Assembly: GCA_003999685.1 (NCBI GenBank)
Contig: CP021223.1
Span: forward strand, 310,001 to 374,000
Direction of reading: 5' to 3'
DNA length: 64,000 nucleotides
Origin: Taiwanofungus camphoratus
Lineage: Eukaryota; Basidiomycota; Agaricomycetes; Polyporales; Taiwanofungaceae
Below are positions 5,582-48,823 of the stretch, piece by piece (position 1 is the stretch's first letter; each line of letters begins with the position of its first letter). Under the pieces are notes generated by a model. That model did not search any database, had not been told where the DNA came from, and saw only the letters and a program-made list of their open reading frames with translations. A program made the translations under genes and the position numbers.

Positions 5582-8500
5582 ATGGCGTCAGCTAAAAGCC
5601 CCGAGGCTGGCAGCTCTCGGGACCCCTTTGAACTCGAACGGCTGGCTGAAGAGCTGGAAACCCGTGAGCTCAGCTCCTCTTCAAGAAAAGGCACCGGGAC
5701 CATCGAGGAGTTGTCTACCGCAGAGCGCGATCTACCTCTCTACGTCCCACTGTCACACGAGAATCCTTATCTTTCTTCTGAGACCTTCAACGTCGAGGAG
5801 TTTCTACTCTCGCGCTCGTATACGTCTCTCCCTGACTTGCGCTCGGAACTCAGGGATTACCTTGCGACCTTGAAGGAGGAACTCGTCAAGCTCATCAACG
5901 ACGATTATGAGGCCTTTATAAGTCTCAGCACGGATCTAAGAGACGAAGGTGCGAGACTCGAGCGGTTGAAATCACCTCTAGGCGATCTCAAAGCGCAAGT
6001 AATTGTACGTTGCAATCTTGGCAGTAGGATACAATGTGGTAATATATTATCTATTTTTGGGCTCAGGAAGCAAGGCAGACATTGCAAGATATACAGGATG
6101 CTATCCAGCTCAGACTAGGTAAACGTTCCGCACTGAGAGAAGAAAAGGTGCGCTGTTTTACAGGTCTTTCGCGGTATGCATGTCTCGCAGAGTCTGAGAG
6201 CACACTCTGCACGAAGGCGGAGTGCATCCTTCCAAATCTAGTTGTTGTAAGATATTAGAAGACCTCTTTTCTGCGGATCGGTTCCGACTTGAGTGAAAAG
6301 GTCAGAACTAACGTCTCACGTCAGGCTTTTCTTCATCTGCTTCTCAAGATTTCCGAGTCCGTCACACGCCTTGAGTCTTTACTTTTGATTGCATCGCCAC
6401 CTGAAGAGGCCAAGAGCTCTGATCTCAATGGGCTGAAGCTCTCAACTCCGTCGGAGGACAATACCTTGGAAGAGAGGTGAGAGCAGCGCCATAGCTTCGA
6501 CGGAAATCATATGAAAGTAGCGGACAGAACGCGAGGCAACCGTGCCAAACACCTAGCTCGTGTCGCATCAGAATATACGCAACTTCTCTACCACGTCTCA
6601 AGAGCTCAGGCCGAAGGTAGCGCCTTTGTAGACGAGTTACAATGGGTTTGTGAGCTGTATCATTGTTCTTTAGCACCCTTCTTCGCTCATGTGAAACCCC
6701 ATCATACTTCCTGTGGGTAGCGCATCGATCGTATCAAGTCCACCCTCTCTTCTGATCTGGATCACCTATTCACTACTACGGTGATAGCCTTGACGTCCGG
6801 CAAGGAACACACAAAGGACAGTAAAGTGACAGACATTGAGAAATCCAAATGGCTAGCCGATGTTACAGAGTGTCTCAGGACATATGACATTCTCGGACTC
6901 TGGCGTGATGCGGAGGACGTCCTTAGAAGGGAAGTCGTCCGCGAGTTTGTGAAGAAGGCAGGTCACGCGCAGACTTTCCTCAGTAGACTCCCATCTCATA
7001 TATCGGTAGACAATCCACCCTGGCGCCCTAGCAGCACCTCACTCTCCCATACTACCCCACACACCGTTTGCTCCAGGATCACGATCGCCCGCTCCGCCCT
7101 TGACAACCTCTAATCCTCCACGCACGCCGTACACGCCATTCACTGCATTCGCCTCGAAGCAGAATCCGTTCGAGTTCAGCCTCCAGGTTGGCGCGGCCCC
7201 GGCGGGGTCGGCACACCTCCTCGACGATCGGGACGACCCACTTGCCGCGCTGTACAACATTCTTCTGCGCTTCGTGGACCGCGATATGAAGCGGATTATG
7301 GAGATCGCCGAGAACGTGTGCGTGAAGTCTGGCACCAGGTCGACAAAGACAGCGGCGCCGTTGTTGGGTGTTGTGCCTGCTACGGAATCGGGAGACGCCG
7401 AGCGCGGTTTCGAGATCATGTCCAATGTAGTCTGGGCGGAGGTTGGGAGGGCGATCATGGACGAGCTGGGAAAAGTAGTGTTCGCCGCTGGCAAACCGGA
7501 TGAATTCCGCAAGGTACATAATCTAAATTTATTCTCAGGAAGTCCTTCTCCATGATATTGATATTTTACCTAGCACTATGAGACAACACAAGCATTCATC
7601 CGCTCGCTTGAATTCCTTGCTCCTTCAGTCCACAGTATTGAAGTTATGCGAGCACATCCGGTATACTCTGCTTTCGAGCGACGATGGCAGCTCCCAGTAT
7701 ATTTCCAGTTACGATGGAAGGAGATTATCACCAAGCTCGAGGAAGCATTGGCAGTTACTCGTCTCGAGCGGACAGATAGTAAAGGTAGCAATAACATTAA
7801 CATATGGCATGGCCCTGCTTAGACCTGCCGCTTACGACAGGTATTGAACCTTTCGTTACTGCCCAAGCAGCGGCCATCTGGGAGGCTATCAGCAGCTGTT
7901 GGAGTGCTGAAGTGTATATACCAGAACTCAGCCATCGCTTCTGGCGACTCACACTACAAGTCGGTCTTTTACTCCTTGGCCATCCTCGTTGCTGAACGTT
8001 AAACCTCCCAGCTGCTCAGCAGATACAGAACATGGATTGAGAGCAGCCTCCCTCCCCTAGAGCCACCACCAAAGGTAGCTGCAGCTGTAGCTACGGAGAA
8101 GTTGAGCGCCGTACGTACAATTTTTGATGAGACGAATAGACACTCATCATACACACAGGCATCAGGGTCCGGAACGCCGACCTCGCTTTCGTCGCGCGCA
8201 TCAACGCCAAATCCACTGATGGAGGGGGCTTCTGCGGAAGCCAATGCAGCCGATGAAGCGCTCTTGCAACAGTTCGCAACAGCCATCACTGACATCAAGG
8301 CGATGGAATTTCAGACACTGAGACTTTGGCGCGAGGAGTTGAGCATGATGCTTCCCGAAACAAGTGTTTCAGTCGAAGACGGTGATGTAGATCCCAATGG
8401 TGGGCTACGTCCTATCAGGCTGGGCTTTGGGACTGACAAATTCTTTTCAGGCGCATTGAACCACATCTTATCAACACTTACATCGCTCATTTCGCCGCTT

Positions 8501-9139
8501 ACCAGTCAGGTTATCTTGATATTATCCAGGCGTGCTTGCGACGCTCTTCTGTCTATGCGATCAATACCCTCGCAATTCAGAGCAATGTCATCAAACAAGC
8601 GTATGCCAACAGAACCCAGCTATTTTGTATCACTAGTTTTTCGTCCCCTCAGGGCCTTCTTCGCCATCGGCTCTGCAGAAGGGCCAGGAATGGCTTTGAA
8701 AGACGAATATTTGCAGCCTTACGCTCAAGAAGTATTCGAAATCGTGACACAAAGGTAGCGCAATGGTTAGAATTCATGCACTGATAAGGACTAATTGATT
8801 TTATATGTAAAGATACATCTACTTCTTGTCAGCCATGAAGAAGACTGAAGAGTCTTTGCGGAGGCTGAAGAAAGGCAAGAAATCCACGTTTTCACTCTTT
8901 AGCGGATCCAATTCCGTCAAAGACGATGATGGACGGGCGGACGAAGAAAAAATTCGTACACAAATGATATTAGATGTTGAAGCATTTGGAAGAGACGCTG
9001 AGTCACTCGGGGTCCCTGTACGACAAAACGAAGTGTTCAAATCATTGGAGGACATGGCTCGTGCCAGTTTGGTAGATGGTACGTGCTGCATCCCATCTCT
9101 TGTTGACCGAAGCTCACCTGTAAGTGACTAGATATTTGA
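5582..9139 (+). CDS. COG2: Conserved oligomeric Golgi complex subunit 2
   Basis: A multi-exon gene. The first exon (5582-5998) encodes the COG2 N-terminal domain: FNVEEFLLSRSYTSLPDLR followed by LVKLINDDYEAFISLSTDLR, the signature of COG2 proteins. The next exon reads EARQTLQDIQDAIQLRLGKR and continues the predicted coiled coil that assembles the COG lobe. Later exons carry the long helical C-terminal region; the final large exon includes AMKKTEESLRRLKKGKK and a short last exon ends at 9139. COG tethers retrograde vesicles at the Golgi. Internal exon borders between about 6.1 and 8.8 kb were only partly worked out. The stop lies 66 bp from the convergent VPS8 stop, so the 3' UTRs probably overlap. 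Confidence 0.88.
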
Positions 9140-9205: not shown

Positions 9206-12200
9206 TTAATATATGTTGTTGGTATTAGTGTGGAAGTGAGACGGTAAACATCTACTATGGTATATGGCACCTGTCCGTGATACAATAATGGGTACCCTGC
9301 TTTCCAACCCCGGCTCTCCGCTTGTCGCAGATTTTTGTGCATCAAGGAACGACTCTCCACAGGACCTACAAACTCCTTGTGATGCCGCCCAACCTCGAGT
9401 TTGTTCATGTGCTAATTCTCCAATTGTCGCGAAAAGATCACGGTCTACCAGATGTTTTGTGATCATCAGCATATCGCTATCCGACCGATACGACTCCAGC
9501 ATGCCAGTGAAGATTGCTCTGAATTCAGCATAAAGAGCAGGTTTCGAGAAGGGGCTCTTCGAAGCTGAGTCTAGCAGCCGTTTAAACAATCGTGGTAACG
9601 AAACAGCCCTCAAGGAACTTATTGACATTAACGAGCTGAAACTACCTTGGACTAGCGAACGCAAGGCGGATACAGTCTGCTTTTGTTTCTTGATGGGTGT
9701 GTCGTCAGTAGAATAGTCGTGAGAAGGATCAAGCGCTTCAGCGGAACAACAGCCAGCAACACGCTGAACGGTATCGATTTGACAGCTGAGAAGCTGGAAC
9801 CAAATATCCTCCAATGGCACATCGGCAGAGGGAGTAAGCTGTGAGTGTTCAAGACAGATGGAATTTGCAATATGTCCCATGGATTCTAAAGCGTCGACTG
9901 AACTCATGAGTATATGTCCATCGGTCTCTGACCCTATTAACGCATCGGCGATCCGCGCGGAAATTGTGCTCTCATATTCAGCGGTCTTCGAGAGCGCGGC
10001 ACGGGGACCTTCATCACGATTTATGGCCCAAATCACGGCATCAAAAACTTCATGCTCCTCGCATGTTTGTATCACGTCAGAAATCTTCAAGAAATCGGAA
10101 GGGAGGTAACAAAGCGCAGCAATGACTCCGGAAGGATCGAGGCGACAGTGAAGCAGAATGTATGTGTTGCGCAAGGATGACGGAACGTGACATGGGGGCT
10201 CGCTCTTCCAAGGTGGGTTGATTCCTTCTTCAGTTGGTTGTGGCGGTCCAAGGAGATAGCGCAGGTAAGCAAAGCGATCATCAGCCTGTTCTAAGGCATC
10301 GATCGCGCGTTCGTGAAGAGCCGGTACATGCCTTTCTAACAGAGCAGCAGTGCTAACCACATTAGTACTCAGGAGCGTGGGCAATGACTCTGTGACAGCG
10401 ACGACAAGTTCTCGTGGTAAAACGCCCTTGTTAGATCGTTCTGCAATGTCAAGAACACCATCGACGGAGGGAATGACTGAAGATCGTGATAGGTCGGGGT
10501 CGTTCAAATAAGTCAGAAATAGAGGTGTCCATCGCCGATCTTGCTGATACCACGATCGCAAAATCCTGTAAAAACCAGCTTTCTCGAACAGGCTTGCTAT
10601 TCGCTCGCTTTCGTGCGGGGTGTATACAGATAGAAGATATTCTGCAGCAAGTTGACGATCCTCACGAGTATCGTGATCTGGATCCACAGCAAGACCGATC
10701 AGGATGCCATGCAACGCGCTTGGAGGGATCTGAATGAAAATGAATTGATGGTACTTTGCAACATTCCGAGCGATGAATATATTCACGAAAGTAACCTCCG
10801 CGCGAGAAAGACCTGGGGATGATAATATTTCCAGTAGAATCTTGACAATAACAAGCCGGCTTATTCTTCGCGTTTCATCGTTGAAATAAGAATCCTCGAA
10901 AGCTGAGTCAAGAGTGTGCAGAAACGCTTCTGGATCAAATCGCAGGAGAAGACGAGTATAAGGATATGTAGGCTCAACGCCATTTTCCTCATCAGATGTC
11001 AAGATGAGTTTGCCTCCTTCTCCCAGTGGCCATACACTCGATCGTCCAAAGAAAAGAAAACTGTAAACGTCATTCCTAGCCTGGAGCGCTTCATCCTCAG
11101 GCAGTGGCTCTTCGGACGGAAACGAAAGCCCCGAAAGAATATCTCCTAGGTAGGGGTAGACCTTGTATGCATTCAAGACAACTGGCTCAATTGCCTCGTC
11201 GTTCATATACGGAGTTGTTAGTGAACCCTCTCGTCGCGCCTTCCGGTATTGTTGTACTTTCCGAATCAGGCCAAGCAGTTCAGCTATTGGTGAGACGTAG
11301 TCCTTCATAGCACGAGTAAATACGTAGATGAGTGCGTCATACAGCTGGTGCTTCTGACACAATGTGACTGCCTGGTTGACATCCAGACAGTCAGGATCAA
11401 TGTGCCATATGATTCTCTCGGCTGCATCTGGACGATTATCCTCATCGTGAAGAGCAATGAGTCGCTGCGTGATTCGTGGCGGGACGTGGCGTATGCTGCT
11501 GTCAAGTACAAACGGCTCCAACTTTGAGAGGAAGATACGTGAGATCCCGTTGTCATCATAATATTGAAACAGGTCCTCGAAAAGGAAGTCGTAGTCGTCC
11601 AACGCAATGCATGCCCGCGCGCAGACTTTCACCAAACCCTCAAAGAGAGACGTGCGATCGACGCCACGACCATCCGATGTTATGTGGGTGCCATCGATCA
11701 TACGATCCTCAGAAAACGCATACCGCGCGGAAGCAACCATCAGTTCATGCATCTTTTCTCCAACGACCTCTTGGAGTTTTTCCGGGGTGTCAGGAAGACC
11801 GTTTCGGTTTCCCGGGGCCTCCCCGATGAAGTACGAGCGGGTGAGTTCAATGGCACTCAGGAAATCGCCATTCTGGACAGATGAAAGAATCCGATCTGCC
11901 CAAGTAAGGAGTGTGCCGACTTGAAGCTCGTGCTGCCCCTGCATCTATAGGTCAATTAGAAAATCTCTTCCGCAAACAGCAAACTTACAAGAAGAAATAT
12001 CTTCCCCTTGTACACTCGCACGCTATGTGCCACCTCCATGACGGCATCAGGATAGGATAGGGACCCATTCATGGTATGGCCCAATATTGGAGAGACCAGA
12101 GACCAGACGTCGTAAGGCACATGCTCTACAAGTTTCGATGAACGGACGTCATAAACTTCTAGACTGTCGTAAGTTAGGACAATGATTTGCTAAAATACCC

Positions 12201-14209
12201 TTCAAAGTGTCAGATTCCGAACCGTATCATCAAAAGGACGAGAGCAAACGCACTCACATTGACATTCAACCATTGCAGCGCCAGAATGTCACCTCCGGCA
12301 GTCCACTTGCTGGTCTCTTCGAAGACGACTCTGCCGACCTCAACATCACTTAATTTCCCTGTCCTAGAATTGGGAGCTTGTTGAACCACCTTAGACTCTG
12401 ATACTCGAATGAGATATATCGTGTTGCTCCATGAATAGACTAGCATGGGAATGGTCGAGCTTCGGCTATTCGAATCATGGGACTGATTGCCCTTCTTCCT
12501 GTATGACCCTGCTTCTGCAGTATCACCAGGAACAACGCTTGGAAACCAAGCTAGCGCACCCTTGAATTTTGACTTAGATCCGATATCATCATCCATCTCA
12601 CGATGCCGTCTATACCAGGTTTTCGGAGACGGTTTCAGCCCAACGATGACAAGTTTTATGGGCGTCAGAAGGGCGACAAGATTGTACTGGTCCGTCGGAT
12701 GTGATGTAGTGCCAAGAGGGAGAGGCCCCATAGCCAATATTGTACTAGTTTTGCGGGGCTTGCGCCGGCGGAATGCATGACGGACGGGTGCAGAACCGAA
12801 GGGTGAAGGTGATACGAGGTCCTCCTCCGGATACTTACCAAGTACGCGAAGGATGTCAGACGCCTCTATGAAGAATACTTTGCCAAGGCTGTGGTAGAAT
12901 GCCAGACCGCAGTCATCACCAGAAACAATTGCAGTATGCCTACCCGCAACGAAACCGACGCTAACAATTCTGGAGCCCAAAAGGTGCCCTTCTTGCCGTC
13001 CAGAAGCAATCGCGGCCAGAGAAACAGGGGGAACGAAACGTACAGGGTTCTTCGGTGTGTTCAAATCGAAGAGCTGTATATGACCTGAGGCGTGTCCACA
13101 AGCAACAAAAGATTGATCAAATGACAATGCCAGTGCGGTGACAGATCCGACCGCTTTATCTGCATCGAATTAGTCAGGCAGACAAGTCAGAATCGCCAGC
13201 CTCCAACATACCTGGGGAGTTGTTGCCACAGACGCATCTCAAGTTCTGCTTGAAATCGAAAACGAGTACTTTGCCTGCGTCGGTACCAACGCAAATAAGT
13301 CCATTTGCAGCGAGAACGGTCGGTGACCCCACATTTTCAGTCCCTAACAGCGTAGACGCCTTCTGTGGTTGTTGAACGTATATATAGTCCCCAATGGTAC
13401 GCAGTTGGGTCCATTTGAAAACCTCTCGCACTTGATATGACTGACCATTGGCGCTATCTGCTCGGCCCAAACTTGCAGATAGGTTCGTCAAGGATGAGAT
13501 CCTAGACAACGCAGAGAAGTGCGAATGCGCAGCAGACGCGCCCTCATTGGCGTGAGAATACGTAGTGCCTACGCTTCCCGATGAAGGCACGCGGGAGGCC
13601 TGAGGTGTGGAAGAACGAAGCCGCGATATGGTTGGATGCAGATATGTGCGTGACAGCCTCGGTGGCGTGCTTGTCCCGTTAGTGGATACCATCTGTGGAG
13701 GAGACAAAGTTCCAAGGGGAGAAATAGGCGGCGATGAAGGTAGGTAATCTGGCGACCCTTCAGCATGCTATACACCATACGTAAGTAGCAGCACCACGAG
13801 GAGAGAACATGAGACTCACCCCTCTCCCATTTCCACTCGACGCCAGAAGCTGCTCGCCCGCTTCTACTTCATGTAGTAGTGATTTCTCCACCTCCCGCTC
13901 GTCAAGTTCATCCTCTTCATGGTCTGGGCCTAACACGTCCCGAAGTTGTTCACGGTAGCCACCAGCGGGGCCCGCATCGATGCCGTTGTATAAAAAGCCT
14001 TCTTCCTCTTCGCCCTTGTCCTCATCTTGGTCCTCGTCTTGGTCATGACCATCTGAACCGTTCTCTGAGTCGCTCATAAGCTCCTCAAAACGGGTAGAAT
14101 AGTCTCCGCTATGGTCGCCTTGACTATCCTCGCCTTCGGTGTCAGAGATATCGAAAGATGAACGCGACCCTAGGCGAGCCTCGTCCTCAGCCCGTTCTGT
14201 CCCATTCAT
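9206..14209 (-). CDS. VPS8: CORVET vacuolar tethering subunit Vps8
   Basis: Five exons (14209-13820, 13767-13212, 13159-12258, 12189-11989, 11944-9206) join in frame to 1595 residues. The N-terminus is acidic and disordered (many DED runs). Next comes a beta-propeller, seen in FVACGHASGHIQLFDLNTP and GDDCGLAFYH, then a long helical solenoid typical of the HOPS/CORVET class. The C-terminus has a degenerate RING-like cysteine cluster (CRSCGESF near the end, later HSRCLP). Vps8 binds Rab5-family GTPase on early endosomes and tethers membranes for fusion. The start at 14209 is the first ATG in the open frame; it faces the CTI6-like gene 333 bp away. Confidence 0.92.
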
Positions 14210-20257: not shown

Positions 20258-23200
20258 ATGCCAATGTCCGCCGACGTTGCTATGTTTTCCGACGATGACA
20301 AGCCTCTCGGTTTGAGGGCGGGACCGAGTACTCAGAATGGCCACGTCGCGCAAAATGGTAACGGACGGCGAGTTGAAGAGTCGTCGATGAGCGAGGACGA
20401 CGACTTACCGCTCGTACGTTGTTTCCTTCTATGTACGAAATGTTTGATCTTTGAACACATGCTGTGTCACATGTGCCATAGTCTCAGGTCTCACGTACGA
20501 AATCCGAGCCAATGACTCCAGATGTGCGCCAATTGAAGCGCAAGAAACGCCAGTCTAACGAGTCCTCTAGTGATGAGGATACTCCCCTAGCTTCGACCCC
20601 TGCTAAACGCGCCGCTTCTGGTGCTGTCCGCATGAATGGTGCTCTCGAGGCTACGACGACCAAAGTTTCTACTTCTAACGGCCGTACCAAGGCGGCGAAA
20701 AAGGAAGCAGACGCAGATGGGGGATACAACGACAGCGGCGATGATGTACCTCTCACGAAGGGAAAGCGCGCAACGAATGGTAAAGGGACGCGTAAACCGC
20801 CAAGGAAAAAGGTCAAGAAGGAAGAAAGCCCTGGTAGTGATTCTGACGATGACAAACCAATTGCGAAGAAGGCGCCTGCTAGAGAGAAGCGCAAGGTCAA
20901 AGATGAGAGTGATGCTGATGATGAGAGTCTCTTAGATGACGACAAGTCCTTAAAGAAACCACCCGCAAAGAAGGCGGCTACGAGGAAGATGCGGGCGGAG
21001 AAGTCAGGGTCTGAAGCTCCCGCGCGCCAGAAGAAGACAGTTAAGGAAAAGAGCGAGGAGACTGAAGCGAGTCCAAAGAAGGGGAGGAAGAAGGAGGAAG
21101 AGGAAGAGGAAGTTTTTCGTTGGTGGGAGCAAGGTCAGGATCCGAACGGCGATGGTACTCAGAAGTGGCAAACCCTGGAGCACAACGGGGTTTACTTCCC
21201 TCCGCCATATGAACCGCTGCCAGCCAATGTCAAGATGAAGTATAACGGTACATGACTTTTCTGCAGAATACGGCCTCCATTTGCTGAGCTTGTCGTGTGT
21301 CTGAATTATATCAGGCAAACCAGTTGATCTCTCCCCCGCAGCCGAGGAGGTCGCCGGCTTTTATGGAGCACTTCTGGAGACCGACCATGCGAAAGACAAG
21401 ACATTCAATAAGAATTTCTTTGACGATTTCTTGAAAGTACTAAAGAAGAATCCTCCGGTTCGTACCTTTAAATTCTATTCGTTTCGATAATTGACGACAG
21501 CTGTTGTACAGCGTAATGGTACCAAGATCACCGACTTCTTACTTTGCGACTTCCGCCCAATGTACGAGTACTTCGAGTCTGAGAAGGCAAAGAAGAAAGC
21601 TATGACCGCTGCTGAAAAGAAGGCTGCCAAGGCGGCAAAGGATGAGCTTGAGGCACCGTATACACATTGCGTACTTGACGGTCGTAAAGAGAAAGTAGGC
21701 AACTTCCGGGTTGAACCGCCTGGACTATTCAGAGGTCGTGGCGATCACCCGAAGAAGGGTGCATTGAAGGTAGATCTTTATGCCCTCTGGTTAAGAGATG
21801 GGTCCTCACGTACGCGGGCCGTTCCAGCTCCGTGTGAGACCTGAAGACATTATCATCAATATCGGTCAAGGCGTGCCTACTCCAATGCCTAATGTTCCGG
21901 GAAAATGGAAAGAGGTTATTCACGACAACACCGTTACTTGGCTGGCTAATTGGACAGAGAATATCAATGGTAACCACAAATACGTCTTCCTCGCTGCAGG
22001 CAGTTCGCTCAAAGGTCAGAGCGATATGATGAAATTTGAGAAGGCCAGGGAATTGAAGGTTTGACCGCTGCGCCCACTGTTCAACGCGCAGTTCACATCG
22101 AATTTTCAAACAGAGTCATGTGGATCGCATTCGACAAGACTACACCGCTGGTCTGAAGGATAAACTGATGCTTGATCGACAGAGAGCGACGGCGATGTAC
22201 TTCATCGATCGTTTGGCTCTTCGTGCCGGTAACGAAAAAGGTGATGATGAAGCGGACACCGTTGGTTGTTGTTCTCTTCGATGCGAGCATGTCACATTGC
22301 AGCCTCCGAATCAGCTCGTCTTTGACTTCCTCGGTAAAGATTCTATTCGTTACTATAATCAGGTTACCGTCGACGAGCAAGTCTACAAGAACGTCCGGAT
22401 CTTCAAAGAGAATAAGAACGATGATGACCAGCTATTTGATCGCGTCAATGTGAGTCCCACTTAGCTCGTGCCCGGATGGCAGCTCATATGCCGTCTTAGA
22501 CCTCGGCTTTAAACAAGCATCTAGCATCTTACATGAAAGGCTTGACTGCGAAAGTCTTCCGTACGTACAATGCCTCGATAACCTTCCAGCAGCAGTTGGA
22601 CCAGGGTACGCCCGAGAAGGGGACGGTACAAGAGAAGCTGAACTCGTACAACCATGCCAATCGTATGGTTGCTATTTTGTGTAACCATCAAAGGGCTGTG
22701 CCAAAAACGCATGAACAATCCATGGGCAGAATGCGGGAGAAGGTACGTCTGGTATCTACCCATCGTCTTTACGATTCATCTAAATGGGGACCTCGCTAGC
22801 TGCGCGCTTTCAAATATGAGCGTATGAAGCTTCGGCATGCTCTGTTCACCATTGATCCCAAGTACAAGAGGAAGCCGAAGTACGCAGAAGACGAATCTGA
22901 CTTAGATGATGATACGATCGCAGAGCATGAGGAATGGATGAAGGCGAAAGAGATCGAGAAGGTGGAGAAGAAGTTCCAGAAAGACAATGAGAAGCTTAAT
23001 GATGAAGGCAAGGAGCCACAGGAGGAGTCTGTCTTGAAGGCGAAACTGGATGAAATAGAACAGGACTTTAAGAGGCTGAAGAAAGAACGCGGGACCAAGA
23101 AGTCGACTCTAAAGAGGGAAAGACCGGCGGAGAAGATTGAAGAAGCGATTGACAAACTAGACGAGAAGATTAAGACATTCAAACTGCAGATGGAAGATAG

Positions 23201-23958: not shown

Positions 23959-26182
23959 ATGAACCCCTCCAAAAGTCAAACTACTCGCCCCTCATGGGTA
24001 TCCAAAACGACTTTCGAAGCGTTGGGAGTCGAATCAGGAGAGGAGAGCGAGGAAGAAGTGGTTGAGGAAACTGCCCCACTCTCATCACCCCCGGAAAGGT
24101 AAGACTTGCGCCTACATTGCAGCTTCCGTATATTCACGCCGGAATTTTAAGTTCCTCTGAATCGCCAGTGCGACCGTCTAAGACCGCCTTGAAGAAAGCG
24201 AAGGATGCAGCTCGCCTAGAGCGGCGGCAGCAACGCAAAGCAGAACGCGCAACACTGAAAACACAGCCCCGAAATCAGCAGGATACTGCGCATCCTGAAC
24301 CTGAAGACGCCTCTCTCAACTCTTCAGGGATTCTCTCAGACTCTCTCTCGATTATTGAAATAAACGAAGATGATCCGGATGCCTCGTCCACTCAACTATC
24401 TGTAGCTGCGAACGATGCAGATATTCCAAATGGTCAGAAGCTTGTGAACGGAGGTGTGGAATCAAATTTGGATATCACCGCTCCATCACAAGATCACCTT
24501 GCATCAGAGGTCGAACCGCCAGTAGTATCTCCTCCTGTGATCAACGGACGACCAACATTGTCTGACAATACCGTGGTCGATGCACCCAAGTTTTCTGCGA
24601 AAGACACCACCGCGATATCTAGCCGGGACGTAGAAGGTGCTTTGGAGAAGCATGCTGGCGTACAAGATGTCGAGCAGGTGAAGAAGCGACAGAACATCCT
24701 CACGCGGACGCTGTGGACATTCATAATGATTGGTGGATTTTTAAGTGCGCTGAGTCTCGCGCCTATGTTCTGCACTGTCTTTTAGGCTGACTATTCTGCG
24801 TCATTCTACATGTCACCGTTGTTACCAGCATTACTGCTTATGGGTCATGCGTACATGATCATGCTCGTTATGCTCTGCCAAACTCTGGTGTATCGCGAAG
24901 TCACCGCGCTGTTTTCATTGAAAAGAAAAGATTCTGACGAGGAAGGATCAAGAGGAAAGGATCCTTGGAGCAAAACTCTGAATTGGTACTTCTTCGCAAT
25001 CACAAACTACTTCCTCTATGGTGAAAGTATTATCTACTACTTCAAGGTATGCTAGTTCCACGTTCATGTTTGCAGCGAGAATGAAACATTATTGTAGCAT
25101 GTAGTCTTCGCAGATGCTCATTTGACACTGTTCGCAACAAATCATCGCATGATAAGTTTCACATTGTACACTATCGGTTTCATGGGTTTCGTGTTGTCCT
25201 TGAAACGAGGATATCTGAAGACACAATTCGGCCTGTTCTGCTGGGTGCACATGACGCTCTTGTTCATTGTGGTCTCTAGGTGCGTTCCTAGACCAATAAT
25301 ATTTCATATTCTGATTGTGATGTTGACCAGCCACTTCATTGTGAACAATATCCTGGAAGGCATGGTCTGGTTTTGGGTTCCTGCGTTTCTTGTTATTTGC
25401 AACGACGTCTTCGCCTATATTTGGGGTATCACTCTTGGGCGGACCCCGTTGATCAAGCTCTCCCCCAAGAAGACCGTTGAAGGTTTTGTTGGTGCATTCG
25501 TGAGCACCGTGATTTTTGGAGTCCTCTGGGGCACATACTTCATGCGTTTTGAGTACATGATATGTCCTGTGCAAGACCTAGGTGTGAGCGCGTGGAGTGG
25601 GACACTTCATTGCACCCCAAACCCCGTCTTCGTATGGAGAGAATGGGCAATCCCGGTGCCATTGAGAGTTTTCTTAAGCACTCTGGTACGTGCGCTTTAT
25701 AGTTTTATCCTCTAGCTCTTCTTGCTCAAAGGTTTATAACGGCACATTGAGCAGCTGGGGCATCAGGTGACAAGTATTCCGTATGCGACGTATCAGATCC
25801 ACTTGTTCTTTATGTCGTGCTTCGCATCCTTGGTGGCGCCCTTCGGAGGGTTTTTCGCTTCCGGATTCAAGCGAGCATTCAATATCAAGGACTTCGGCCA
25901 CAGTATCCCTGGGCACGGCGGGATGACTGACCGTATGGACTGCCAGTGCGTACACCTTGTGGCGCTTGATACCCTCATGGTTAGACTGATGCTGGCCCTC
26001 GTAGGTTTCTGATGGGAGTGTACACATATGTGTACTACAGCAGCCTTATTCGCCAGCACCATGTAAGCGTTGGTTCGCTGCTCCAGATGATCGTGAGCGG
26101 TCTGACGCCCAGTGAGCAACTGGAGCTGATGGCCGATTTGAAGAGATATATGGAGGGGCAGGGTATCGCTGTGAACATCTGA
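23959..26182 (+). CDS. CDS1: Phosphatidate cytidylyltransferase (CDP-diacylglycerol synthase)
   Basis: Makes CDP-diacylglycerol from phosphatidate and CTP in the ER, the branch point to phosphatidylinositol, phosphatidylserine and cardiolipin. The N-terminal 200 or so residues are acidic, Ser-rich and disordered. Multiple membrane helices follow (for example [19 protein letters not shown] and [17 protein letters not shown]). Family residues include [20 protein letters not shown] and [13 protein letters not shown]. The CDS signature near the C-terminus is [19 protein letters not shown] followed by MTDRMD. At least six short introns interrupt the gene. The end at 26182 follows GQGIAVNI. No defects seen. 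Confidence 0.93.
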
Positions 26183-26824
26183 AGTTTCACCCGAGGGTTT
26201 GGGATAATGAGACATTGTCTTTGGTTCGGGTTGCCGTCCTCGGAGCGGGACATGCCTGAAGGCTATGACTGCCGAATGTCAACGTACATTATTTTTGCTA
26301 ATGCGTAGGACGATCAATAATGCATTGCGTATTTACGGAACACGCTTATTATTTTTCGCGTGCTGGTTTACAGAAATGAGGTTTTCACTTAAGGGCATAG
26401 AGTTTGAAGCTGGAAAAGGTTGACACAGTTGACCCACCAACCCCGTGGTCCTTAGTCAACGTATAAGTGCAGCAACCGCAACACCACCTGTATCCTCTTC
26501 TGCTACCTTCACAATTACAGGTAATGAAAGGCAGGATTAGCTCCGTAAACTATTGGTTCACAACAGCGTCATTGCAACCAGAGCAAAGTCAGACAATGAC
26601 TACCCTTACAATTCCTTGTCACAATTATGGCACTGTAACAAAGACAGCACAACATTATGTCAAATGTCGTACGACGAGAGCAGACAAATTATTTGGCATA
26701 TGGTTCATTATCCGAATCATAGCATCGCATAGATAGTACAAGCATGGAGTACCAGACAAAAGTGCATTCGGTTACGACAGTTAACAAAAAGGAAGAGCGG
26801 TCCGCGCAGGCTGAACGTATGTAC
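26183..26824. other. Convergent intergenic region, CDS1 / RPS23
   Basis: 642 bp between two 3' ends. AT-rich with no supported ORF. Likely 3' UTRs. Confidence 0.4.
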
Positions 26825-34512: not shown

Positions 34513-37500
34513 TCATCGCCTACCCAACCCGAACCCGAACACGGTTGAGCTTTGCCCTGCGCTTGGGCTTGCAGAAGCACTTGCTCCCGATCCCGGGTCA
34601 GGGGGATCGGTGCGCGGGCCTATAGAAGTGGTGGGACTAACGAAAGGAGTACTGGGTCCTGATCCCACGCTTGATATTCCCATCAGTTTCTGCACGATAT
34701 ACGGCCGAACGACCTGCGAGCCCTCGCGAGCATGGATCGGCGCGGTCGGCGACGGCGGTGCCGAAGACGAGCCGGCTCCTGGAAGGGGCGGATGTGGTGG
34801 GCGGTGCGAGCCACTCATGCGTGCAGCGCTCGTGCGGCGAGATTCGCTCATGTGAGACGATGAGGAATGTGCAGAGTGTCGGAAATGTATGTCAGAGACG
34901 GTGAGTGGGATCGAGTCGGTCGGAGAGGGAAGCGCACCGGACGAAAGGAGTCCAGGATCAGATGCACTGGAAGGTAACGTAACCGGTGGAACAAGAGAAA
35001 CAGGTTGGAGGGAGATATCTGGAGTAAGCGACGGTCGACTAGCAGTGGGCCCGCCACCAATCGTCACGGATAGGCCAAGGGACATGCGACGTTCGGGTGG
35101 ATTGTGTATACTACGCTCGCTCCCAGTGTTTTGCCGCGACCTCGTCGAGCTCCGGGTGGATTTCGAGTTCGACCGCGAGTTAGATAGCGACTGACGAATA
35201 GAGCGTGCGCGGCTGCCAGAGTAAGACGTTGATGCCGACGCGGACGAGGAAAGATCGAGGAAAGAACGAAGAGTTGACGGTCTTGACAATCGGACCTCCG
35301 TTTCCACAACATCGTCTGCCCTCCCTGCCTCTCCGCTACGGCCGAGAGCCTGTCTAAGAGATTGTGGGAGCGATAGTGCTCCCGCACTTAGATGTCTCTC
35401 AGCACGGCGCTCTGGCCGTCCCTGCTGACGCGCAAATCCTACCCTGAGCGGTGCAGAATTCTCCTCTGCTTCAATTTCGAAACTCGGAGTAATGATGTGT
35501 GACAAAAGTATACCCTGACTGCTCTCGCGTCCGTGCATCTCACGAGGCCCTCGGGGCCGAGAGGTGCGAGGGGACACGGGAGATACAGGAGAAGGTGTCA
35601 AGGGGGACGACGGCCACCGGGAGGGAACAGACTGTGAGGGAAACGACGTCGACGCGAAGTACCCTTGAGATATTGGAGACAAGTCGGGCAGTTCGATAGA
35701 GAAGCTCCCATCAGAATTTTGGGCAGCATGCCTCCGCCGTGATCTCCTGTTGTCCATTGTTCCTCCCCTTGGTTTCTTCTCATTGTAGTTGTCGCCATGA
35801 GCATCATCGTCGCCTACGTTTTCTCCGCTAATGTCGAGGACGTTCTCCTCGTGAATGCCGTGAACGCTTTCATGTTCGAGCTCTTGTACCTTTTCTGGTT
35901 CCGTTTGACCAGCAAAATCGACTTTTTCTGTGCCTGGTGAACAAAACCCGCGCCAGTTAATATGACATTGACTAAAGCGTGGATTGACCATCATGCTGCG
36001 TTTTTTGTGCGCCAAACGGCGGCGCCAACAGATGATGAAGATGATCAGGGCGAGAAGAGCAATGAATGCCAGGCTGACACCAATGGCAATGGCAGCAATC
36101 GTCCCACGAGGGATACTCGAAGACGATGTAGCACCAACTGGCGTGGCACTTTAGTCCAGAGAGCATGTATATCAAACGTGATTGGATCAAGGACCATTAT
36201 TTTCAATAGCGTCAACGGGATGTAAAAAATAGGATGATTCAGATGAGGACACGCACACGTCGACACTCTCCTCCGTCGTTACATTCACACCCCCCACCAA
36301 CACGACTAACAACATCCCAGCACCTGCACTCCCGTCAGAACCGGCGTTGACAATCTCGAGAGTGTGAGTAACGTTAGGATCAAGTCCCGCAGCGAAGAAA
36401 AGTAGCGTGGGCGATGTCGAGGTAAAGCTTGCACGTGCGGAGAATGGCTCAGGTGCAGAATCATCAAGTGTAATATTGTAGTTTCCCGAAGAAGGGGCCG
36501 TCAGCCCTGCGATAGTGACCGCTGTGCCTGTGCTCGAGAGGGTCAGCAACGAGAAACCGATGTCGACACAACAAAGAAAATCGGAAGGAGGACGACCGGC
36601 AGACAGTCATGAATGGTGGTATTATATTATGGAGGTGTCAAAACGCGGCGAATGTTACGAAAGCGTACAGCCAAGAAGCGGCTGTCGATGAGACATTAGA
36701 CATGAGACGTGAGAAGCCCGCCAATAAGCGACCATAAGCGCGCTATTGAACCGAACACGAGTAACATGTAGAATAGCAGGCAGGATACAGAACAATATGA
36801 TGTTACACAATAAAGCGACGTGCAGACAGGGCACATCAGGGACTTGAAGAGACGACAAACAAGTTCCAAGGATAACGGATGCGCAGCAGCACAACCAACG
36901 AACGAAATTGAGGCAGAGCAAGCGCGAGAAGCTGAACTCACCATTAAACATGACATGCGCACTATCGCCGACATTTGTGCTCGTGTGAAATGCCGCGCTC
37001 GGAAGGCTGGGAAGAAGATCTAGCGCGTACGACCACTGCCCGCGGTATGCAATCAAGTTGTCTGGTACCGTTGAACTGGTCAGAGTCTCTGTAACCGAAG
37101 GCATGGGAGAAGTGGGCGTGGGGATGGCGACCGTTGGTGAGGGCCTGTTTGAGTGGAGGTGTCAATTTGTTCAGTGGGATTAAACAGAATGAAGCCCAGA
37201 CGAGAAAATTGTCCGAAGAATATGGTGCAACCTGAAATTGAGAAACATTCCACAAGAATGAAACTTATTGTCGTAGCGAATATCAATATAGCGCAGTGGA
37301 TAAAAAGGGACGAAAAGCGGAGCACAGGAGGTAAAGTCATCATGGGGATCCGCTCATAAGACAGCATCAGCTGGAAAGATATACAGACAGAAAGTAACTG
37401 GGAGAAGTGCTCCAAATAGGAGACAAGAATAAGATAAAAAGGGAAGAGAATATTGCTAAAAGACTAAGCGTCACGTAGCATCTCGTACAAGGTTGCGCAA

Positions 37501-38677: not shown

Positions 38678-41111
38678 GCATATATAATTCGAGGCTGAGA
38701 TCAGCAGATCAAGAAGTTGTCGGTAAGTTCCAAGAAGATTCGACAATAGGGAGCTCGCTGAAGAGCTCCTTAAATGTGGTCTCAATATTAAGGTAGTCGA
38801 CAGTGGAATGAAAGAGAGACCGGCGCTCTTCCAGCGCGATTGATGAAGACCGTCAGACCCCGGCGAGGAAGAAATGCCTCGAGGAGGACGTGAATAGCGC
38901 CGTGCACGTGAGCGATCCTTTGGCGATTAATATTGGTCGGCAGACCGGTGACTGTAAGAGAAACTGGAATCACGCAAGACAACCAGTTCTAGTATGAAGG
39001 ACAAATTTTATGGCTCGCAGGCTGGAATGATGCGCTCTATATGGGTTCACTATATAATGAAACTAGGCAAGATATGGCGGCGCTCCGCCGCCGGGCCTGC
39101 TGCCACACGCAGAGACAAGCAGAGACGCCGAACGAATGATGGCTGTGCGCAAGCTGTGCAGGCGTATAGTGTAGCCTCAACCTTGACGACAGATACTTAT
39201 CCAAGCTCAGAGCCGTCTGAGCTCCGTCCGGATCAATTGATGGTCTAGGCGCTTGCTATGCAGGACGTCAGGTACCTGAAACGATGAACTGACTCTATCT
39301 TGATATCACCACCGTGTGCACAAGCCTTGCTTGCATGGGGTACCGTCAGGTGCTAATGTGGATAGGATTTTGACTGTCTCGCCGCTAGTGCTCCCATCGA
39401 CGGAACAACGGCAGAGTTTTGGAAGATGTCATATTTATCTGGAGCAAAATCTCAGGCACGAGAAATACTCTTCTCTGGTCCTTAGCAGCGGTAGACATGT
39501 TAGAGGGATGCGAAATTTACCTTTTTAGATTTACGGGAACTGAACAGGACACTAGACGGAACCGGGTTAGGGTCCATTCCAATTTTGCACTGCTTGTTCT
39601 CGCTTCGCATTTGTGGTCGCAGCATACCACCAATTGATTTGACCGTGACTTAATGGACAGATACCTGGACCAAAAAGGGAGATAGCATGTCTCAGGGCAG
39701 CAAAATGACAAAATGACGCTACAGGTGATATAGGTTGGTATACACTGAAGATGTGGGCTCATAAATGAGATGTGACAGTTTACTTGCCATAGAGAGGACA
39801 CCATCACCGACACCCGAGGACGGAATCTACGTCCCAAGATCGGTCGATAAGATTGCTGACGGCCAGACACTACTGCAAAGAGTCCCTCAAAACGTTCCTC
39901 AAGATAAGGTAGAAACCACATCACAATCTATCAGAACAACGATGCCGTTCCACCGGCCGTGAGGCGGCGAGGGGACACACCAGAGATCATTCATCTCAGC
40001 ATGTACCACCGTAAGGCAGTGTCTCCATACCCTGGACACCAAGCAATGCGTATCCTTCTCACTTCTCCAGCTGTATCAAAATCAAAATCATGGAATGAGT
40101 ATATAAACGTCGTAGGCTCTCCGTCCGGTCACTCACGGGCAGAACCGTCGCTGTTGTTAATTACGACAGGGGAGACGGGTTGACGCGCCTGTTTACCTGT
40201 CTGTTAGACCTCAAAGATAGGCCAATGTTTTTGGTTTGCATCAAATCCAATATACCCTAAAAGGACATGGCCTCATTGAGTTGACGTTGTTGTCGAGCAG
40301 TTTGTGGAATAGCATGCGCAAGTCAACCGCCGCCTTCACCAATTCCTGGAGCTCAAATGACGGGCATCATTGATGAGCATACGCGGTATCCATGGGCGAA
40401 GGAGTCAGCCTCATTGCTATTTATGCACTCGCAGTCACGCCAGCTTAACATTGCAAATGCACCCCCATCACGAGCAAAGAATGAACAACACGAACCAGAT
40501 GGCTTCGAGAGACAAATCCAGCTGAACATTCCTGAGACCAAGCAGAGGTTTTAGTGCTTGAAGTGAGTAACGTACTATAGAGATGTTTAGTCGGAGCTAT
40601 TGAGAAGCTTGGAGAGTACGCATTCGACGACAGTCGCCACAAAACTTGTATCCGATCACAGTTCGAACGACCTACAAGGATAAGTATACTCTAAGCTATG
40701 AACGATTATATGCCAGTAGCAGTACTCGCTGAGGCAAGGCGAGGATCGTGTGCTGAGTGAGCATGAAGTCTTCATTTTGACTGTCAAGTGATGGCAGACG
40801 AAAGTTCCCTTTTCCGTACCTGCCCGATCCGATCTTCTGAAAGTCTATTGGTTAAATCAAGGCTTGAGTCGGAACACTCGCACTCCCAAATCACCAAGAC
40901 CTGGGGCGCTTTAAGGTATATGGTTTCGAGTTTATATTGGCATGCTTCATCAAGGAATGTTTGGGTACTGATGGGTCCGTGCGATAGAGTGCGTAGTTCT
41001 GACACCAGGTGGCATAGAGCCTCCGACAATGCCATACTGTGAGATTTCTAATATATGGACAGAGAACACTGTACTACGCCTCTGATCACTTACGTGGAAA
41101 GAGAATAACGC
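38678..41111. other. Gene-poor stretch
   Basis: About 2.4 kb with only short unrelated open frames. The best (41035-40784, minus, 83 codons) has a gene-like composition but no recognised family and no splice partners. I can support no intact gene, RNA or repeat here. Confidence 0.45.
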
Positions 41112-45619: not shown

Positions 45620-46506
45620 TTAAAATAACCCCGCAATATCCTCTTCTAGCCTCTCGTTTCCCCGGAATATAACGTGACCCTTCCGTTGAAACAGTGGAGG
45701 AATTCGCGGAACAGGTGGCTTCTTTCGCCTTCCCCTCTGTCTTTGCATCCTGCCTTTACCCCCAGAGCGCTTATGATCTGGCATCGTCGTATCTGTAGGG
45801 TCCGTTTTTATCGTCTCTGTCGCTTCGACGAGTGATAGCTGCCCGTCCGTGCTCTGCGTTTTCTGGCTCGCATCCTGAGTTCCGGAAGTGGACGCAGAAG
45901 GCTCTGGCGGTGCATCTGGGTCAACAATCGGCGGCGCAGGAATCTTCCGCGTAGTTTTGCAGGCCATGCAAATATAAGACACGGAATGGCCGTGCGACAG
46001 GGATGCTGACATTCATTGGCGGTATGATATCAATTTGCAGGCATGGATGGATGGCGGAGAATGCTGCTTACGCTTGATCCGTACGGAAGCCGTGGCACCT
46101 GGAATCAGGATGGTATTGCATCCCTTGCAGAGGGTCCGTTTGATGGTTGGGTCCCTGAAGCCGGATATAAGGCCAAGCAATCAGTCAGGGTTAAGCAGAC
46201 AAACATCTTCACAGTTGTCTTCTGCCCAATGATCTTCATCGACTTCACATAGCTCCTAGACAGCTCAGCAGCCGTCGCAGGATGTCTCTCCTTGTGCCGC
46301 CTCGAGCGTTTCTCTGCTCTATTGGTTTGACCTTTGGGAGATGGTGCATGACTAGTGGTAGCGATCGGCTCTGGGTGTGGATGTGACGCGACGGAGTTCA
46401 AGTAGGCGCTTGCTTGGTAGAGGAAGTTGAGACGTTGGATGATATCCCGGTTGGCTACGTTGTTAAGGCTGACTGCCGGCCCTTGATCCTTGTTTTTCTT
46501 TGCCAT
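45620..46506 (-). CDS. RPR2: RNase P/MRP subunit Rpr2 (Rpp21-type zinc ribbon)
   Basis: Three exons (46506-46205, 46154-46072, 46005-45620) join in frame to 256 residues. The start AKKNKDQGPAVSLNNVANRD and RLNFLYQASAYLNSVA match the helical N-terminus of Rpr2/Rpp21. The zinc ribbon is formed across introns: RTLCKGCNTILIPG gives the first CxxC and VSYICMACKTTRK the second. The C-terminus adds a Lys/Arg-rich stretch (GRMQRQRGRRKK) likely to touch RNA. It acts in the nuclear RNase P that trims tRNA 5' leaders. Snm1 of RNase MRP is a related alternative. It faces the HAC1-like gene over 420 bp. Confidence 0.85.
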
Positions 46507-46927
46507 GGTGTGGTACTAGTCGGAAGATAGCCCCCGTTATGGTAAGTAAGATCAAACATATGTAGGTGTTTACAGCATCCATTTTTCTGTCCCTCCGATG
46601 TCCAAATGCCACTGAACTTCACTCTTCAACCGAAAACAATGCTTTCAAGTCGCCTTCACTCTGGAAAATACATAGCTATCATGGTGCATGCAATCTATCC
46701 AGAGTCCAGAACTACTTTAGTACCTGCATTGTAGGGTCAAACATGAGCAAACAAGCAAGTGTTACGTGGCAGAGGACGCATGCTCTGCCTTCCTCACGAC
46801 ATCCACGTACGTCCTGCGCTCTGACCGCAGTAGGTTCCTCTCATACAAGACCAGCCCCTCTTTTTCCCTTTCTCCACGTATATCTCAAGTACTCTTCTAC
46901 GTACTCGCTTAACAAACCAGAACCAGC
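46507..46927. promoter_or_regulatory. Divergent promoter / leader region, RPR2 / HAC1-like
   Basis: 421 bp between two diverging starts. On the plus side it contains an upstream ORF beginning at 46743. I did not identify a UPR element with confidence. Confidence 0.4.
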
Positions 46928-46931
46928 ATGA
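46743..46931 (+). promoter_or_regulatory. Upstream ORF overlapping the HAC1-like start
   Basis: An ATG at 46743 opens a 62-codon frame that stops with TGA at 46929-46931. The main ATG is at 46928-46930, so stop and start overlap as ATGA. If it is in the mRNA it would block or couple main-ORF translation. In Aspergillus hacA a uORF is known to restrain translation, which supports relevance, but the transcript start here is unknown. Confidence 0.45.
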
Positions 46932-48162
46932 AGCGAGCAGCCGACACCGAACTCGCCCTTCCCTCGCCGCCCGCCGAGTCCTCCCAATCACCCGCGTCCT
47001 CTTCAGCAGAGTTACACCCCGCTGGGCCTGCGCGCAAGCGCGCTCGTTCCGGCACTTCGCCTGAGGAACGCAGGGAAGCACGGGCACACCGCAACCGTAT
47101 CGCCGCGCAGAATTCCCGCGACCGCCGCAAGGCACAATTCGCATATCTTGAGCATCGGGTAGCCGAACTCGAGGATGAGAATAGACAGTTACGGGCAGGC
47201 ATGGGCCTTGTCGGCCTCCGACATGTGGAGGATGACAGGGCAGATGAGCAGAGTCAGAGAGATAGGGCGAGGGACAGGGAAAATGAGGAGCTGAGGGAGA
47301 GGATTAAGACTCTTGAGACCGGTTGGGACGCTGTTGTCAAGGCTCTCACCGCGTCTGGTCTTCCCTTGAATATTCCCTCTGTAACACCACCATCAACGAA
47401 ACCCATAGTCTCCCCATCTTCGGAATCATCTACTTCACCGCCCTCACAGCCTTCGACCACAGCCTTCCCCGTTCTTGTACCTCCATCACCAGTTTTCCCT
47501 ATTTCTCCTGCACCGTCTGACGCCTCGTCCTCGAGCTCAAACACACCTCTCTTCCCCCTTGACTTCGATGACTTCGTGCCCACTCGCCATCTAGCACGGA
47601 TGGCGAACACTGATGCCCCTCCTTTATCATCGGTGCCCCTGCAGCGGGTGGGTCCCTGTCCTCGGAGTCGAATCTCCTTCAACTCCAGCTCGAGCTCGAC
47701 AACTCTTGTCCAACACCCTATCAACCGCCGTCAACCATCGCAACTGGCCAAGAGCCGCCTCCTTCAGCCATGGACGACGTGGCCATGGAGGACTTCCTCC
47801 GCGAGATCCTCGCGCCCTCTCCCACCGTCCCGTCGGCGCCCCTGCCGACTGGCCCTGTACCTTCTACCGTCAGCGAGCACGCGTCCACCCGGTCGCGGTC
47901 CCCGTCACAGTTTGGGACCATCCCAACCCCCGACCAACAAACCGTGCCGCCCGCGGCCTCGGCGCCACTGATGGCACCGACCATCGACTGGGACAGCGAG
48001 GCGGAGATGCAGAGATTGCTGGACATGCTCCCTGGTGTCCGGCCGGACGCGGGCGCGGATGATGCAGTGGACTTTCCGTCCGCTCTGGATCTGGAGCTGG
48101 ACGGGTGGGACTTGGGTGGTGCAGTTGGCGCGCCGTCTGGTCTCGAGGTCGGCGTGTTATAG
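46928..48162 (+). CDS. HAC1: Hac1/Xbp1-type bZIP unfolded-protein-response factor
   Basis: The bZIP basic region reads RAHRNRIAAQNSRDRRKAQF, then AYLEHRVAELEDENRQLRAG as the leucine zipper. This basic region is typical of fungal Hac1/HacA/Hxl1, the nuclear UPR activator of ER chaperone genes. The unspliced frame runs to 47971 and ends in an Arg/Pro-rich tail of poor quality. A second frame open from at least 47659 to 48162 is acidic with AMDDVAMEDFLREILAP and TIDWDSEAEMQRLLDML, like an activation domain. Removing a piece whose length is 2 modulo 3 starting after 47641 joins them. Ire1-type excision of 17 nt (to 47658) would give 405 residues, or 47 nt (to 47688) would give 395. The exact 3' cut is not certain. 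Confidence 0.85.
47635..47649 (+). promoter_or_regulatory. HAC1: Candidate Ire1 5' cleavage hairpin
   Basis: GCCC, loop CTGCAGC, GGGT: a 4-bp stem (last pair G-T) closing a 7-nt loop with the CNG/CAG pattern that Ire1 cuts after the third loop base (after 47641). It lies exactly where the coding quality of frame 1 ends. A weaker partner is CTG with a 3-bp stem TCC/GGA (47653-47666). Confidence 0.65.
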
Positions 48163-48823
48163 TGCACGCTGCAACTACCCCCTTTCATCCATGCCCTGTA
48201 CAAAAGCGTCGGTTCCTAATCTCCTTGGGTCTTTCGTCTATTTAATCGGACCAGTCCTGGCTAGATGTCTTTTATATTGTCTCGTATAATTTCCTCTTCT
48301 TTCTACTTACTCTCCGGCCCTACATCTTTCCATTCTTACCTCCCATACCTAGCCCATTTTTGGCTTCATTCGGTGCATCCCGCTAGTAACCCCTTCCTTT
48401 TTCGTATTTTGATGCTGTCTCCCCTATGCTTCCGGCACTGTTCTCCCCTTCGAGGTTGATGAATGGCGCCTGTGGTACTGGGTGAGCGCTCGTTTGCGTA
48501 TTGGAGGTGTGCAGCTGTGTGTACTGTAATGTAGTTACATCGTTGGACACGGTACGTTAGAGGAATAGAAATGGCATGAGTTGCGATTGACTTGTGTTTG
48601 ATGACGACACCAGGATACCCAACTGCTATCAAAAGATGACTGCGTAGTGAGAAACTTGATCGAAATATACCTGTACGCATGATCCATCTAATGAAGAAGT
48701 AAGAGGTAGTATGTAGAACATTACCAACAGCGAAAAACATGCAAGCTTCAATATGACCGAGGGTCTTGGAGGCCAACCTAATAAAATACAACCAAAAGCA
48801 CGAATGCACAATGCTATCATAGA
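48163..48823. other. Convergent intergenic region
   Basis: 661 bp of T-rich sequence after the HAC1-like stop, probably its long 3' UTR, and the 3' flank of the membrane gene. No gene supported. Confidence 0.4.

Follow-up and report, generated by a model that had tools for sequence, protein, structure and literature searches.

A putative HAC1/XBP1-type bZIP gene of Taiwanofungus camphoratus with a predicted Ire1-type unconventional intron

What joins the two coding frames of a bZIP gene in Taiwanofungus camphoratus, whose frame switch falls within a strongly folded stretch of RNA? The locus lies in a 64,000-nucleotide stretch, the whole of the DNA that was analysed (hereafter, the window), and the original prediction, made from the letters alone, placed there an unconventional intron of the Ire1 type, within a HAC1-like gene. 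We consider an Ire1-type unconventional intron of some kind in this gene probable, and it is the best reading of the locus: the evidence for a change of frame is good, and the surrounding RNA is unusually structured. The kind of intron originally proposed is supported; its borders are probably wrong, since the loop CTGCAGC taken as the 5' site fits better as the 3' site. As to the exact borders, we lean towards positions 47595–47641 of a HAC1/XBP1-type bZIP gene, that is, an intron of 47 nt.

A bZIP gene with two coding frames

The unspliced open reading frame begins with the ATG at 46928 and encodes 347 aa (46928–47971, + strand). Its residues 45–90 (about 47060–47197, + strand) form a bZIP domain, recognized above cut-off by both Pfam bZIP_2 (E=1.2e-11) and Pfam bZIP_1 (E=1.8e-11) and located upstream of the predicted intron. 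The top matches in a PDB sequence search with the gene product were general bZIPs only (best E=0.0011). We take the basic region, NRIAAQNSRDRRKA, to resemble that of XBP1. Searches of viral_contigs and genome_contigs gave no relatives. An Rfam search of the 64-kb window gave no match at the gathering score; two matches by E-value inside the gene were on the opposite strand and below gathering, and were taken as chance. The divergent neighbour at 46105–46515 (- strand) has a weak match to Rpr2/Rpp21/SNM1, an RNase P subunit family (E=0.00031, below the curated cut-off), and is a possible synteny marker. Further eukaryotic genes in the window are COG2 (8003–8758, + strand), Vps8 (9206–13169, - strand), topoisomerase I (20482–21255, + strand, and from there presumably to about 23500, as judged by eye from its translation) and a cytidylyltransferase-family protein (25098–25715, + strand).

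Part of this GC-rich gene stretch is open in all three frames, so openness of a reading frame is by itself little proof. The two frames were compared with a codon model whose training set was ten long ORFs from the window, about 3800 codons in all; Pfam gave no match for two of these ORFs and a borderline match only for one. The bZIP frame was the best in all eight 90-nt bins of 46928–47647, and the second frame, open at 47614–48159 (+ strand), was the best in four of the six bins from 47648, the final bin extending beyond the stop codon. The model placed the switch point at 47612–47660 (95% interval), which bears out the earlier claim that the bZIP frame loses coding quality near the CTGCAGC loop and that a second frame opens close by. 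The predicted intron at 47595–47641 (+ strand) overlaps this interval. Its removal would join the two coding frames and yield a product of 395 aa with a new C-terminus; the joined reading has a codon score of 21.3 vs -6.6 for the first frame alone. Predicted exon 1 (46928–47594, + strand) runs from the ATG to the predicted 5' cut and carries the bZIP, as delimited by the open frame, Pfam and the codon bins, and predicted exon 2 (47642–48162, + strand; stop codon 48160–48162) is drawn from the open frame and the codon bins. The 172-aa tail of the spliced reading contains 25 D/E vs 5 K/R, in agreement with the acidic, activation-like second frame that had been described. The out-of-frame tail of the unspliced reading, 109 aa from residue 239 on, has no D/E and 22 K/R.

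A folded RNA domain around the frame switch

The 115 nt at 47558–47672 fold with -49.9 kcal/mol vs -34.6 in shuffled sequences (z -4.60, none of 200 as stable; z -4.31 against a further 200 shuffles). A wider segment of 321 nt around the domain gave z -3.39, none of 100 shuffles being as stable. When 3196 windows of 115 nt were scanned (both strands, 40-nt steps, 30 shuffles each), the window at 47561 (+ strand) ranked fourth with z -4.64, and the adjoining windows had z -3.97 (at 47521) and 0.29 (at 47601); these ranks and scores are to be read with the fact that the domain limits, the scan window length and the clamp strands were picked after the fold was known. A control with synonymous codons was weaker (z -2.3; 41 of 3000 redrawn variants as stable). 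The three segments with slightly lower z are 38681–38795 (+ strand, -4.82), 35321–35435 (+ strand, -4.70) and 26561–26675 (- strand, -4.69). For the first and the last of them, the surrounding sequence had no Rfam hit up to E=1, and a wider fold of the first had z -2.37.

The predicted fold consists of an outer clamp, an inner clamp and three hairpins within the inner clamp. The outer exon clamp (47559–47671, + strand) comprises the helices 47559–47568/47662–47671 and 47570–47572/47658–47660, and the inner one (47578–47653, + strand) is the helix 47578–47583/47648–47653 (GCCCAC/GTGGGT). A two-helix exon clamp with 19 bp in total was equalled in 6 of 3000 shuffles, its strands having been chosen after the fold; the longest single clamp helix, of 10 bp, is unremarkable (reached in 184 of 3000 shuffles). 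Once 47595–47641 is removed, the inner clamp is predicted to grow to 10 bp (47578–47587/47644–47653) around the junction.

The first hairpin (47584–47606, + strand), the predicted 5' splice site, has an 8-bp stem, TCGCCATC/GATGGCGA, and a 7-nt loop TAG|CACG with the cut after 47594. Its dG of -11.6 is the lowest among 271 hairpins of this class on the + strand (7-nt loop, third loop base G); one such hairpin on the - strand, at 11380, surpasses it (-17.0). In the ensemble, G47594 and C47595 at the cut bond are both unpaired with probability 0.97, and a U-G pair can shrink the loop to 5 nt (probability 0.91). The eight pairs compare well with the stems of about five Watson-Crick pairs described for known Ire1 sites (PMC3149027). 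The loop departs from CNG|(C/A)NGN, the cleavage specificity measured for S. cerevisiae Ire1 (PMC8104961), in that G-1 and C+1 fit while C-3 and G+3 are absent. This weighs against the proposed site, as does a Candida glabrata HAC1 intron that lacks the consensus and was reported to be unspliced (PMC6116095). Either Ire1 is less strict here or one border lies elsewhere, and the 5' site is possibly a variant of known Ire1 sites. Because of this off-consensus loop, we describe the element as working like an Ire1-type intron rather than as a certified member of the class with these exact borders.

The third hairpin, CCC[CTG|CAGC]GGG with two wobbles that extend the stem (47636–47648, + strand), is the predicted 3' splice site, cut after 47641. 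It contains the 7-nt loop CTGCAGC on a GC-rich stem that had been pointed out before, at 47639–47645, on an unbroken stem of five pairs, of which three are G-C and two are wobbles (-3.7 kcal/mol). The loop CTG|CAGC fits CNG|(C/A)NGN, and the hairpin is the most stable of the 27 with a consensus loop on both strands of the window. At its cut bond G47641 and C47642 are unpaired with probabilities of 0.87 and 0.94; the exact closure 47638–47646 has a probability of only 0.19, and 47639–47646 one of 0.43. With three G-C pairs plus two wobbles, the stem falls below the roughly five Watson-Crick pairs of known sites. To keep the two exact 7-nt loops open in the 47595–47641 model takes 2.6 kcal/mol. 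Between them, the minimum-free-energy structure contains an intron-internal hairpin (47608–47635, + strand), predicted as an 8-bp stem CACTGATG/CATCGGTG with a 12-nt loop. The consensus heptamer CTGATGC is mostly buried in the stem of this hairpin, which might act as a switch.

Neither splice-site hairpin is rare singly, and it is their combination that carries the signal. The core CNGCNG occurs 332 times on both strands of the window (shuffle mean 292). Hairpins with a 7-nt loop whose third base is G number 529 over both strands, and in 27 of them the loop follows the consensus. A consensus-loop hairpin as stable as the CTGCAGC one appeared in 135 of 200 shuffled windows and a hairpin as stable as 47584–47606 in 94 of 200. 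A pair as good as the two together (15–120 nt apart, 2 modulo 3, at least one consensus loop) appeared on the + strand of 4 of 200 shuffled windows. The window has a second right-phase pair on the + strand, 53276/53365 (89 nt apart, one consensus loop), with an energy sum of -14.0 vs -15.3, which is probably due to chance. A frame switch sits under the pair 47594/47641.

Alternative explanations of the frame switch

An excision joining the two frames must be 2 modulo 3 in length, as was correctly stated at the outset, and several other introns comply. The original prediction read CTGCAGC as the start of the excision, with the first cut after 47641 and the second either 17 nt downstream, after 47658, or 47 nt downstream, after 47688. 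CTGCAGC is indeed a perfect consensus loop, both lengths are 2 modulo 3 and the codon scores (20.8 for 17 nt, 19.5 for 47 nt) are near the best. The 3' sites, however, fail on structure. For the 17-nt version, C47655 faces C47663, so that no 7-nt loop closes, and G47658 sits in an outer-clamp helix (unpaired probability 0.00); holding both loops open gives -39.3 vs -49.9 kcal/mol, a cost of 10.6. No 7-nt-loop hairpin was obtained for a cut after 47688, the right-phase 7-nt-loop hairpins found downstream in a scan to 48130 have energies of 0 to -0.1, and the loops CTG|TCCT and CAG|CTCG violate the consensus. We regard a 5' role of CTGCAGC as unlikely, and think it more likely that this loop holds the 3' splice site of the 47-nt intron that starts at 47595.

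A spliceosomal intron is a slightly less probable way of joining the frames. The earlier statement that no GT-AG intron could do so was too strong: 17 GT-AG pairs of 38–120 nt formally join them, the best being GTGGGT...CAG at 47648–47688 (41 nt), in a scan that was run without the donor rule, which was judged too strict for this genome. In none of these 17 does a YTNAY motif occur together with a YAG acceptor. The candidates comprise this 41-nt intron, the 56-nt GTGCCC...CAG at 47633–47688 and, among longer pairs, a 365-nt GTGGGT...CAG at 47648–48012; the last passes the donor, branch and acceptor rule, as does a 353-nt GC-AG pair. All three have GT-AG ends and the right phase, and the 365-nt pair has a CTGAT branch motif, but it removes most of the second frame, and the two short candidates have no branch motif. 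Calibration of introns by codon score yielded 1 and 2 candidates, and gaps in the topoisomerase I gene of the window were used in its place: four of the six had joining GT-AG pairs. In one of these four, as here, none of the joining introns had YTNAY, which speaks for a spliceosomal intron. The 41-nt candidate is nevertheless shorter than four of the five topoisomerase I intron candidates (39, 55, 58, 67 and 76 nt) and has the lowest codon score (18.6) of five intron models. A spliceosomal intron would also leave the folded domain unexplained.

It is similarly improbable that a sequencing or assembly indel at 47612–47660 breaks one continuous frame, or that ribosomal frameshifting bridges it. 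The region has C and G runs, and a plain shift by 2 nt, placed at 47620, has a codon score of 22.1, at least as high as any intron model, yet the structured domain on the switch and the consensus loop would be left without explanation. The codon scores hardly tell the 47595–47641 intron from the other intron models. Last, a 29-nt Ire1 intron at 47613–47641 has borders that both match CNG|(C/A)NGN (CTG|ATGC and CTG|CAGC), a length of 2 modulo 3 and a codon score of 21.1, but we think it improbable too, as its 5' border lies within the middle hairpin instead of in a loop (G47612 unpaired 0.01; A47609 and C47617 unable to pair), keeping that border open gives -40.6 vs -49.9 (a cost of 9.3 kcal/mol), and a matching pair of heptamers is easy to find because 46900–48200 contains 20 consensus heptamers. 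The 17-nt, downstream 47-nt and 29-nt introns were thus set aside on structure.

Comparison with known HAC1/XBP1 introns and a proposed mechanism

The predicted 47-nt intron at 47595–47641 can be compared with several characterized systems. HXL1 of Cryptococcus neoformans, a basidiomycete HAC1/XBP1-like gene with a 56-nt unconventional intron, is reported to have the same layout of a bZIP followed by a frame-changing intron of 2 modulo 3 with predicted stem-loops at its borders, but it differs in an additional 55-nt conventional intron and in having CAG at both borders, where TAG and CTG are predicted here (PMC3154848). The same source names HXL1-like bZIPs for Coprinopsis and Laccaria (PMC3154848). 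The Ire1-removed intron of cib1 in Ustilago maydis is reported as 65 nt, a size range similar to the 47 nt here (PMC8071499, PMC6918084), and an intron of 47 nt comes closer in length to both of these basidiomycete introns than one of 17 nt does.

The 3' hairpin of human XBP1, given as UGCACCUCUGCAGCAGGUGCA, has a loop CUGCAGC identical to CTGCAGC here, and the 5' site of S. cerevisiae HAC1 also has AG|C (PMC6037481). The RNAs of both XBP1 and HAC1 are reported to rearrange in a way that promotes ligation, and the predicted extension of the clamp to 10 bp after splicing resembles this (PMC6037481). Splicing of human XBP1 likewise shifts the frame, with an intron of 26 nt vs 47 nt here (PMC4438243). 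In hacA/hac1 of Aspergillus, CTGCAG is described as repeated at both intron ends, whereas the gene here has one CTGCAG; the intron in Aspergillus and Trichoderma is given as 20 nt rather than 47, and its removal in A. flavus shortens the protein, while here the protein would lengthen (PMC11508391). Intron–5' UTR pairing of the S. cerevisiae type, which goes with a long HAC1 intron and translational attenuation, was not found: with the 200 nt before the ATG taken as the 5' UTR, the pairing was equalled by 137 of 300 shuffled introns. The 5' loop of human XBP1 keeps the consensus, unlike TAG|CACG. Among the literature matches listed (titles and abstract starts), none localizes such an Ire1 intron in any Agaricomycete. 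A genome paper on the white-rot genus Pycnoporus reports no clear Hac1/XBP1 orthologue, though Ire1 and tRNA ligase are present (PMC4101180).

For this locus we infer Ire1 cleavage, ligation, dependence on stress and an activating role of the tail. Under ER stress, Ire1 would cut the loop of hairpin 47584–47606 after G47594 and the CTGCAGC loop after G47641. The exon ends would be held by the helix 47578–47583/47648–47653 together with the outer helices, and an RNA ligase would join the exons. Ligation would link the bZIP to the acidic tail in a 395-aa protein, and the unspliced mRNA would give the 347-aa protein with its basic tail.

A tentative and rather doubtful extension is that the two sites are asymmetric, with an off-consensus TAG|CACG on a very stable 5' hairpin and the 3' XBP1 loop on a weak stem. 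If so, the 5' site would be read mainly by structure and the 3' site by sequence, the specificity of Ire1 would be unlike either yeast type, and the exons would zip together after cleavage. A structure-led definition of the intron, with exact borders that are predicted, may be a way to find such HAC1-like genes, and the off-consensus 5' loop, if right, would bear on the choice of substrates by Ire1.
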